From assembly GCA_024330215.1 (NCBI GenBank), contig JANDLU010000025.1:1-41042 (forward strand): DNA of 41,042 nucleotides. The letters run 5' to 3'. Positions 10,712 through 30,141 of this stretch are shown here, piece by piece (within the stretch, counting starts at the first letter, position 1; each line of letters starts with the position of its first letter). A program made the position numbers and the translations under genes. Source of the DNA: Candidatus Gaiellasilicea maunaloa. GTDB taxonomy: Bacteria > Actinomycetota > Thermoleophilia > Gaiellales > Gaiellaceae. The notes under the pieces were generated by a model, which did no database searches, was not told the origin of the DNA, and saw nothing but the letters and a program-made list of their open reading frames with translations.

Positions 10712-11983
<1,272 letters not shown>

Positions 11984-12006
11984 GCCCTGGCCTGCGTTGC
12001 CCGGAG

Positions 12007-12031
12007 AGCTTGTGTTGGAACAACACAAGCT
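12007..12031. repeat. Hairpin repeat, copy 1
   Basis: Core arm CTTGTGTTG, loop GAA, complementary arm CAACACAAG, extended by AG/CT to an 11-bp stem. It lies 24 bases after purA and could also end its transcript, but no U-run follows. Confidence 0.85.
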
Positions 12032-12066
12032 TCTCGGGGTTCGCACGGTTGCGAGAGTCAGAGACG

Positions 12067-12087
12067 CTTGTGTTGGAACAACACAAG
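12067..12087. repeat. Hairpin repeat, copy 2
   Basis: Identical 9-bp arms and GAA loop as copy 1. Flanking bases differ and do not extend the stem. Confidence 0.85.
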
Positions 12088-12356
12088 GCTTCCTGAGCCC
12101 TGGCGATCGAGGCTGCGCCTTCGACCGTCAGCACCTGCGAGCCACATTCGAGGAATCCCCGCGACATCCGACCTACCCCGCCCGACCTGCGCGGTGGGAT
12201 CTTCGACGATCTCTCGACGCTCGCCGGGCGGGGGAGGCAGCGCGGATCGTCGAGGCGGATGCGGGATCGACCAGGCGACGCTGCCGCTCGCAGACCAAGG
12301 ATCCAACGCGGCGGCAGCGCTGACGGACGCCCAGCAGGAATGGCTTGCGGGAGTGG

Positions 12357-12385
12357 GCAGCTTGTGGTGGAACAACACAAGCTGC
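12357..12385. repeat. Hairpin repeat, copy 3 (one mismatch, longer stem)
   Basis: Same core with one change (CTTGTGGTG) that leaves a single mismatch, but flanking GCAG/CTGC pairs lengthen the stem to 13 positions. Pairing gained outside the core while one inner pair is lost suggests selection on the fold or independent copies. Confidence 0.8.
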
Positions 12386-12414
12386 TTGTGAAGCCCCGCG
12401 CGGGTCGCGATGAG

Positions 12415-12435
12415 CTTGTGTTGGAACAACACAAG
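12415..12435. repeat. Hairpin repeat, copy 4
   Basis: Identical 21-base core to copies 1 and 2, 38 bases before the stop codon side of the convergent small gene. Confidence 0.85.
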
Positions 12436-12472
12436 GCGCCGCGCGGCACGACCCGGCGTGGCCGGCGGCGGT

Positions 12473-26368: not shown

Positions 26369-27202
26369 ACCCGAACCTCCTCGCATGTCGGAATCCCCGA
26401 GCGCCCGTCGAGCGCTCGGCACGAGAGGGCGGCGCACTCGTTCGCGAACGCGAGCGCAGCGGGGAGCTGCGAGCCAAGCACGAATGCTGCAAGGAGGGCG
26501 CCGTGGAAGACGTCGCCGGCACCGAGCGTGCTCACCGGTTCGGCCACGGGGTTCACGGACGCCTCGATCGGCCCCGGTGCCGCTGTAGGCGCCGCACCCG
26601 TGCTCGCCCCGCGTCACGACGACCAGCTTCGCGCCTGCCGCAAGGGCAGCCTCGGCCGAGCCGAAGTCCCGCTCGAGTGTGGACTGCGTGGGGGAGTAGA
26701 GCTGGATGCCCGCGAGGTCGAGTCCGGGGATCGGGTTGCCGCCGTCGATCGAGAGGCGCGCGTCGCGTGGAGCCGCCGCGTAGCCCACGTGGTCGACGTG
26801 TACCCAGTCCGCGTCGCGCATCATGTCGAGCGCGCGCTCGGAGGGGGTGAGCGCCGGCACGGTTCCCGGGAAGTGGACGATCGCGCGGCTCGCGCTCTCC
26901 GCCTCGACCAGAATCGAGCTCTGCGGCGACCGCGCGCCCGGGACGAGGGCGAGCTCGGAGACGTCGACGCCTTCGCGCTCGAGCCCAGCGCGGATCGCCG
27001 CACCAACCTCATCGTCCCCAACCGAGCCGACGAAGAAGACGGGAACGCCGAGGCGGGCAAGGGCGACCGCCGCGGTCGCGCCCGGCCCGCCGCCCGCGAC
27101 GGCGAGCTCGCCGGCAACGACGCGGCCGTCCGGCTCCGGATGGGACGGGACGACGAAGATCGTGTCCTGTGTCGCGAGTCCGAGGCAGACGACATAGCTC
27201 AT
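26365..27202 (-). pseudogene. PfkB-family sugar kinase broken by a frameshift
   Basis: The reading frame from 27202 encodes the first two thirds of a ribokinase/PfkB-type kinase: YVVCLGLATQDTIFVVPSHP, GGGPGATAAVALARLGVPVFFVGSVGDDEVG (signature 1), SRAIVHFPG and GAKLVVVTRGEHGCGAYSG. Around 26590 it slips into unrelated basic residues. The rest of the kinase continues in another frame: APGPIEASVNPVAEPVSTLGAGDVFHGALLAAF (signature 2 with catalytic Asp of GAGD) to IPTCEEV. One base added or lost, or a small deletion, near 26570-26600 explains this. No standard slippery sequence is visible. It may be a true mutation or a sequencing error. Its ATG overlaps the mannosidase stop. Confidence 0.75.
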
Positions 27203-30141
27203 CGGACGAGCACGGTCGCCACCTGATGGGGGCGATAGGGCAGCACGATCTCGTCGCCCTCGGCCTCGAGCGCCTCCCGCTCCTCCTCGAGCGCGTTCGC
27301 GAGCAGCGCCGCCGAGAACGGGAAGCCGAGCCGCACGCGCGCCGTCCCCCGCCCGCCGTGCGCCTCGTAGAGCCGCAGCACGACGGCCTCGGAGTCCTCG
27401 GCCGGCTTGATCGTGTCGAGGACGACGTTAGGATCGTCGACCGAGGCAAGTGAGCGTCCTTGTGTTTCTGAAAGACAAGCGCTCCAGCGCAGCGCCGCGT
27501 TGAACCTCGCGGCCTCGCCCACGATCCCCGCCTCGCGCCAGCCGCCCGAGTGAGGGACGACCGCGTAGGCGAAGGCGTGCGCGCCCTGGTCAGCCTCGGG
27601 ATCGGGGCTTGTCGGGGAGCGGAGCAGACTGATCCGGAGCTCGTTCCCGAAGCAGCTGTAGCCGTACTTCGACTCGGTGAGGAGGGCGACGCCGAAGCCG
27701 TGCTCCGAGAGGTCCGCCCAGCGATGACCCGGCACCTCGTAGCGAGCCCGGTCGAAGCTCGTCGAGTAGTGCGTGGGCCGCTCCGCATAGCCGAAGGCCG
27801 TCTCGTAGGTCGCGTTCGGCGCGCGGACCGCGAGCGGGAAGCAGACCTTGAGCAGCGTGTGCCGCTCGCGCCAGTCCACGGTCGTGTGGAGCTCGAGCCG
27901 GCGCGATTCCGCGTCGAGCCGGACGACCTGGGTCATGGTGCTTCCGGATCCGAGCGAGCGCGTGAACTCCAGCTCCGCTCGCAGTGGCGTCTCGTTGCCG
28001 ACGCGATGGGAGGTCGCCGGCTCCGCGTCCCGCCGCGTCCCGAGGTGCGCCGGGTCGATGTCCCACGCGTCGAAGGCAACCGGCTGGTCGTCGTAGAGCT
28101 CGAGCCGGTTTCCCGGCGCGGCCAGCGCCTCGCGACCGCTCTCCTTCTCGAGGAGCGAGACGAGTGTGCCGTCCGCGGCGAGCGTCGCCCGCAGGTGTCC
28201 ATTCTCGAGTACGAGCCCGTCCAGCGTCACCTCGTCGCGCTGCTCGACCGCACCCCCGAAGCCGTACGGCGGCACCTCGACGAGCGCGAGCCCGGAGCCG
28301 GGAACGTCCGCTACTTCCCGGCGTGCGAACCCGATCGTGTTGACCGCGACCGGACCGGGCTCGCCGAGCACGGCTGCACAGATCTCATCCGCGCCGGCCT
28401 CGACCTCGGCGAGGTCCCGCTCGGCCTCCTCGTGGACGAGCCGGATCGACGAGCCGGGGAGGATGTCGTGGAACTGGTTCAGGAGGAGGAGCTTCCAGAG
28501 CCGGTTGAGCTCCGTGCGCGGGATCTCCCTCCCGACCAGCGCTGCGAGGAACTCGGCGTCGTGCAGCGCCGCCTCGCCGCGCCGGTTGCCGCGCTTGCAC
28601 CGCGCCTGCGAGGTGTAGACGCCGCGGTGATACTCGAAGTAGAGCTCGCCGACGACGACGGGCCGCTCGCCAACCTCGGCTTCGAGCGCCTCGAAGAACT
28701 CGTCGCTCGCGCGCTGGCTCGTGCGCGGCACACCCTGGAGATCGCCCGCCCGCCGCAGTGTCTCCAGCATCGCGCGCGTCGGGCCGCCGCCGCCGTCGCC
28801 GTGGCCGAAGAGGAGAAGCGAGGTCGCCGACGAGTCGTGATCCTTGTACTTCCGCGCCGAGCTCCGCAGCTCGGGCACCGTCGCCTCGCTCGAGTAGGTG
28901 TCGCCGGGCGGGAAGTGGCCGAGCACCTCGCTCCCGTCGAGCCCCTGCCAGACGAACGTGTGGTGCTCCGGCTTCACGAACTTGTTCCAGGAGAGCTTCT
29001 GCGTCAGGAAGCGCGTCAGCCCCGACTCGAGCATGAGCTGCGGGAGCTGTCCCGGATAGCCGAAGGCATCGGGGCTCCAGAACTCGCGGCAGCGGACGCC
29101 GAGCTCGTGCTCGAACCAGCGCTGTCCGTGCAGGAACTGACGCAGGAGCGACTCGCCCGAGACGAGGTTGCAATCCGGCTCGACCCAGCTCCCGCCGACG
29201 GGAACGAACTGGCCCCGCGCCACCGCAGCGCCCACTCGCTGCCAGAGCTCCGGGTTGCGCTCCTTGATCCACGCGTACTGCTGGGCCTGCGAGCAGGCGA
29301 ACCGGTACTCCGGATACTCGTCCAGGTAGCGCACCTGGCTCGAGAACGTGCGCACGGTCTTCCGGTAGGTCTCGGCGAGCGGCCAGAGCCAGGCGGTGTC
29401 GATGTGGGCGTGGCCCATCGCGACGAGCTCGTGCGTGCGCGAGCCGTTCCGGCGGCCGAGCAGGTGCCGGAGGATCGCCTGCGCGGGCTCCCACGTCTCG
29501 CGCTCCTGGGGCCGCCACTCGTTCGCGAACCGCTCGAGCTCGCTTCTGAGCTCGCCGGCGAAGCTCGGGTCGAGATCTGCGGCACCGTCGGCCTCGAGCG
29601 CGCGCAGCGTCTCGAAGTCGTGGAGGAGTACCCACGCGGCCGCGTCGTAGAGCGCGAGCTCGCAGCGGTCGAGCGTCGGCTTCGGGAGCGAGAGGTACGG
29701 GCCTTGCTGGCGGCCGAACATCCCGTTGCAGGCGAGCTCGATCTGGAGCGAGAGCCGCTCGCCGCCGGCCGCCTCGTCGAGGAGACGCGCGTCGGGCCGC
29801 TCGCCCGCGCCGCCGGTGTTCAGTCCCTGGAGCGCGCACCCCTCGACCCATAGCTGCGCCTCGCTGTGGGAGACGAAGAGCAGATCGACGCGGCGACCGC
29901 GCCAGTCCTCCGGCACCGTCGCGCCGATCCGGAGCCACCAGGTCGACCACAGCGGGCCGAAATGCTCGCCGAGCCGCGCCTCGCGGTAGTCGAGCGCCTG
30001 CGCCTCCTCCCAGGAGATCCGGTCGACGGGGCCACTGACCAGGATCTCGTCCGCCGCCTGCGTCTCGGGATAGACGAGCGCGGCGAGCCGGTCCGCGGTC
30101 TGGCGCAGTCGTGCGCGCGTGTACTCGGTGTGCCGGATCAA
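27199..30141 (-). CDS. GH38 alpha-mannosidase
   Basis: A large zinc glycosidase (about 980 residues) that removes alpha-mannose units. The N-terminal domain ([48 protein letters not shown]) leads into the catalytic barrel: [28 protein letters not shown] (zinc His/Asp) and [19 protein letters not shown] (nucleophile Asp). [11 protein letters not shown] follows, then the beta-sandwich C-terminus ending [29 protein letters not shown]. The frame is open to 30297 with a basic, domain-free lead. The TTG at 30141 gives [26 protein letters not shown], which fits family N-termini, and is preferred. It lies 193 bases after the importer ATPase, so it probably acts inside the cell on imported oligosaccharides. 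Confidence 0.88.

Follow-up and report, generated by a model that had tools for sequence, protein, structure and literature searches.

The window, by which we mean the whole 41,042-nucleotide stretch of Candidatus Gaiellasilicea maunaloa DNA that we analysed, contains a 489-bp gap (11984-12472) between purA and a convergently oriented neighbour gene. Within the gap lie four palindromes of the form CTTGTGTTG-NNN-CAACACAAG, arranged as two pairs (Table 1), with start-to-start distances of 58, 294 and 54 bp. The initial annotation had described this arrangement, including the altered third copy with its longer flanking stem, correctly; in 100 dinucleotide shuffles of the window, searched at up to three mismatches, not one palindrome match was obtained. 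Unit A by itself folds as a single long hairpin on the + strand (z = -6) and is kept in the sister genome (locus L100), where the two sites are 59 bp apart and the second reads CTTGTGTTGTAGAAACACAAG. Unit B, whose 54-bp spacing is an outlier among palindrome pairs, is missing from the aligned stretch of the sister genome. That stretch also has no counterpart to the intervening DNA of about 270 bp. The sister-genome orthologue of the degenerate solo copy has the canonical core. In other genera purA and the convergent neighbour are much closer to each other wherever both are readable, with stop codons 14-15 bp apart in two of these genera; thus, the gap in the window has been expanded in this genus.

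Table 1. Positions of the palindromes, the units that they form and the neighbouring genes in the window.
Feature	Position	Strand	Details
purA (adenylosuccinate synthetase)	10712..11983	+	upstream neighbour; stop 25 bp ahead of copy 1
paired unit A	12000..12095		copy 1, 37-bp spacer, copy 2
palindrome copy 1	12009..12029		CTTGTGTTG GAA CAACACAAG; outer flank GAG/CTT
palindrome copy 2	12067..12087		start 58 bp past start of copy 1
non-coding DNA between units A and B	12088..12360		from gene calls and alignment
paired unit B	12350..12445		copies 3 and 4
palindrome copy 3	12361..12381		CTTGTGGTG, one base altered; longer flank stem GCAG/CTGC
palindrome copy 4	12415..12435		54 bp past copy 3
convergent neighbour gene, 105 aa	12473..12790	-	no Pfam match
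degenerate solo copy	27459..27479		within large minus-strand gene 27199-30141

The palindrome family is specific to the genus. The source genome (3.85 Mb in 200 contigs) contains the core GTGTT-N5-AACAC 114 times, against one occurrence of the reversed control; the other genome of the genus that we searched, the sister genome, which is 69% complete, contains it 61 times against zero. The 39 other genomes of the family and order together contain eight such cores, and ten of the reversed control. With up to three mismatches allowed, the palindrome has 105 copies in the source genome and the reversed pattern none, while the full 21-bp pattern at up to two mismatches is present in two of 41 genomes. 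Of the named genomes, JACCRW01 (MGR_bin32, an unclassified actinomycetota MAG) is the only one with exact matches. We set aside stray sites in three other genera, whose neighbours are unrelated, and a single exact match among viral contigs, which has an unrelated context and is probably due to chance. We found nothing relevant in the literature on the motif or on a Thermoleophilia repeat.

To describe the anatomy of the family we used the window, 42 further stretches of the source genome and 32 of the sister genome, with genes called by a simple codon-usage finder trained on these stretches, so that gene starts are uncertain. Comparison of the two species reveals a family that is inherited in position and under strong sequence constraint. 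At the 12 core positions orthologous sites share 99.0% of their bases (511/516), whereas identity is 76% at the three loop bases, 60.6% at flanking bases 4-10, 63.6% in the spacers and 70.5% at fourfold-degenerate sites of neighbouring genes. All 12 positions are unchanged in 41 of 45 orthologous sites, against a neutral expectation of 0.7; these 45 sites were chosen by the pattern in both genomes, and a flank search serves as a small check on the resulting bias. In this search the flanks of unmatched sister-genome loci were compared with the source genome, in that direction, and a site was found at seven of eight positions, two of them degenerate, the sole loss being at L093; L103 had no counterpart and L092 reached only a contig end. 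An empty and a filled site could be compared at one locus (L093/L136). Nearly all placeable sister-genome loci have a source-genome site at the same place, and in 14 of 19 cases a spacer finds its best match in its true orthologue, which argues that the sites are inherited loci and not repeated insertions. Pair spacing is conserved within 0-3 bp in 18 orthologous pairs, while one further pair measures 60 bp in one species and 70 bp in the other. Single sites read in both species, a small number counted by eye in the alignments, mostly keep the 12 core positions as well. Across these two species, with the sister genome at its 69% completeness, selection has preserved both 7-bp arms at almost all loci, and the loop, spacer and flanks have drifted.

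Most sites are paired, with start-to-start distances falling into classes of 54, 57-60, 67-71, 78-84 and 100-103 bp and, rarely, at 162 or 228 bp. Spacers are related to one another from locus to locus: in 123 of 325 comparisons the score is higher than the best one from shuffled sequence. It is therefore the paired unit, a double palindrome of about 100 bp, that spread by duplication in the manner of a REPIN. Like a REPIN it is a doublet that forms one hairpin around a less conserved spacer: whole units fold to a single long hairpin with z between -4 and -8, strongly on both strands. The unit entered short intergenic gaps and, apparently, a few protein loops. Both this spread and the origin of the single sites are largely older than the split of the two sequenced species. 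We also observed a recurrent central variant, GTGTTTCWGAAACAC, at L155, L137, L140, L063 and other loci, often in single sites; orthologues alternate between it and GTGTTGNWNCAACAC.

The gaps that contain sites comprise 25 tandem, nine convergent and five divergent ones, compared with 47, 15 and 34 among background gaps of the same stretches. Divergent gaps contain sites less often than the background would give (5/39 against 34/96, p=0.011); the preference for convergent gaps about which the initial annotation had asked is not significant (9/39 against 15/96, p=0.33). In tandem gaps the site lies at a median of about 10 nt past the upstream stop codon. Sites within genes encode LVLEQHK-like peptides. 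In biotin carboxylase and SelB, alignment to homologues leaves a gap of one residue at most in the segment that encodes the site; this segment hence was not inserted as a block, so that, judging from these alignments, at least two single in-gene sites arose without insertion. In a phosphomannomutase-like gene the loop containing the site exceeds that of most homologues by 2-5 residues. A PMT_2-like glycosyltransferase gene (L063 3581-4978; L091) contains three in-frame palindromes 60 bp apart, and its counterpart in the sister genome contains two, one 60-bp unit fewer. In a 2-oxoacid dehydrogenase E2 gene (L033 4026-4208), two linker sites 162 bp apart bracket the E3-binding domain.

Hairpins so close behind stop codons could act in RNA, as terminators, mRNA stabilisers or RNase III sites, and RNA processing signals were among the options raised at the outset. 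Their position fits such a role, as does the strong folding of both strands, and many flanks are complementary, as selection for a hairpin, or quasipalindrome correction, would give. The pattern of substitutions argues otherwise. Among sites with no more than three mismatches, a cut-off that hides a few double changes, the pair at positions 1/21 is CG in 98, TG in 22, CA in 21 and TA in one, and that at 3/19 is TA in 123, TT in 10 and AA in nine; uncompensated changes therefore dominate both. On the sense strand TG and CA are about equally frequent (13 and 10), with no bias towards the strand that would pair U with G over the one left with C-A. A stem compensated on the transcribed strand is thus not what we see, pair 9/13 alone being partly compensated (TA in eight, where about one is expected by chance). 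Some sites moreover lie in genes and some in divergent gaps, and Rfam has no match within the window. Because stem changes are mostly uncompensated and strand preference is absent, we read the palindrome as a protein-bound DNA site rather than an RNA hairpin, and consider an RNA element improbable. What the substitutions do resemble is the site of a dimer: the half-sites are conserved, vary independently and keep a fixed arm spacing, and 145 of 147 sites have A or T at their centre. Two independently read 7-bp half-sites flanking a 5-bp AT-centred spacer thus suggest a homodimer.

A protein-bound site must also be weighed against REPIN- or RPE-like selfish palindromes. Such elements would be non-autonomous, a Y1 (RAYT-type) transposase from another locus mobilising them in the form of single-stranded hairpins, and their cores would look conserved since only intact copies replicate. 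The REP/MITE-like character proposed in the initial annotation holds as far as architecture goes: copy number, doublets with a conserved core and a variable spacer, homologous spacers, a hairpin of the whole unit, positions at gene 3' ends and copies within reading frames are all in accord with it, and the source genome has four Y1_Tnp genes. It fails at the transposase and at the end tags. No Y1 gene has a palindrome within about 2 kb, let alone on its flanks, and none occurs in the stretches around the four Y1_Tnp genes of the source genome or the three of the sister genome; conversely, four of four relatives searched outside the genus have Y1 genes, yet the core pattern at up to two mismatches is absent from all the relatives outside the genus in which it was sought. 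GTAG is found within 12 nt of 0 of 147 sites, and CGTC is directly adjacent to 10 of 294 ends, too few for a fixed tag. Copies remaining in place should also decay, but core identity is 99%, against 70% at neutral sites, and single copies are kept too, unlike the REP singlets of PMC3116915, so that we do not observe singles decaying while doublets persist. A distant RAYT may act in trans on the palindromes. With loci inherited in place and cores so strongly constrained, however, a decaying mobile palindrome does not describe them, and we judge the selfish explanation unlikely. Least credible of all are ordinary dead repeats, or the functionless local duplication that the initial annotation had named as its alternative. 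The missing sister-genome counterpart of unit B would suit them, but the copies extend across the genome and the genus, their core constraint is far beyond neutral, and the conservation of orthologues contradicts them unless systematic gene conversion among copies is invoked.

Of the three options first offered, sites for a regulator protein are hence the best supported, given constrained cores and loci inherited in place. Because the cores were kept almost letter-perfect while the surrounding DNA changed freely, the palindromes are probably docking sites for a putative protein rather than dead repeats. From these observations, we hypothesize with moderate confidence, on the strength of sequence comparison, that the genus possesses its own set of about 114 sites, spread partly as REPIN-like pairs, which would be bound by a putative homodimer and have a chromosomal role. 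The site has the consensus [C]TTGTGTT-N5-AACACAA[G], its middle base nearly always A or T, and each palindrome would be occupied by a homodimeric DNA-binding protein with one subunit per arm. The pair distances of about 59, 70, 81 and 103 bp correspond to steps of about one helical turn; such spacing could allow the two dimers of a unit, or those of separate units, to contact each other or to bridge DNA. By analogy with LacR, whose looping is phase-dependent over the same range of distances, these one-turn steps are suggestive of paired dimers on one face of the DNA; the argument is weak, since the steps may be no more than the mark of three or four founder subfamilies. The role would be one of architecture or insulation at gene 3' ends and not the usual control of promoters, given how seldom sites occupy divergent gaps and how many functions the flanking genes have. 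We put forward more tentatively, as a possibility, the fuller proposal that a REPIN-like repeat was domesticated genus-wide, giving about 114 putative protein-bound sites (about 50 double-site loci) that would organise or insulate gene ends, with pairs spaced by whole helical turns.

As to the binder, neither of the sources that we considered, the ParB paralogues and a small gene at L028, yielded a candidate that we retained. Almost every relative searched has a single gene of the ParB_N family. The source genome has two extra ParB-like genes (L211, L212), which we rejected as a Noc-like binder: they stand beside relaxase- and DUF932-like genes and have no sites, and the chromosomal parAB is ordinary. 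The two extra genes probably belong to integrated conjugative elements. The L028 gene, considered as an autoregulated binder since it lies between two sites 390 bp apart, has no Pfam match.

Several known systems share features with this family. Rickettsia palindromic elements (RPEs) occur inside genes, and some copies here also lie in frame within genes. The CGTC-tagged repeats, to which RPEs belong, are likewise short palindromes, often dimers, near gene 3' ends, and the GTAG/CGTC repeats of Di Nocera and colleagues occupy similar positions (PMC3733652), but here CGTC is no fixed end tag. The REPINs, or REP doublets, of Pseudomonas (Bertels and Rainey 2011; PMC3116915) resemble our units in having paired palindromes about 60-110 bp apart, a variable spacer, extragenic positions, more than 100 copies and a unit hairpin. 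Our palindromes differ from them in having neither a RAYT neighbour nor a GTAG tag, in a core that is symmetric and perfectly palindromic, and in loci inherited in place with cores, those of single copies included, conserved far above the neutral rate. LacR also uses two closely spaced dimer sites, and its looping is sensitive to helical phase at distances of 58-156 bp (PMC1762422). It works at a promoter, however, whereas the palindromes here have another sequence and no promoter association.

On each chromosome the parS/ParB, Noc and matS/MatP systems use palindromes of fixed sequence, numbering from tens to about a hundred, which, as here, are dispersed in and between genes at conserved positions. 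Our sites differ in sequence and form closely spaced pairs, their protein is putative, and the extra ParB-like genes here belong to mobile-element-like sets without sites. Palindromes scattered through bacterial genomes are usually put down either to selfish DNA or to repeats of some loose utility; to our knowledge, selection acting on them at individual loci has rarely been demonstrated. In the present case one word has stayed in place in two species whose fourfold sites have diverged by about 30%, and therefore the question of function becomes directly testable. The conserved sites point to a putative new DNA-binding protein in a little-studied, uncultured actinobacterial lineage.
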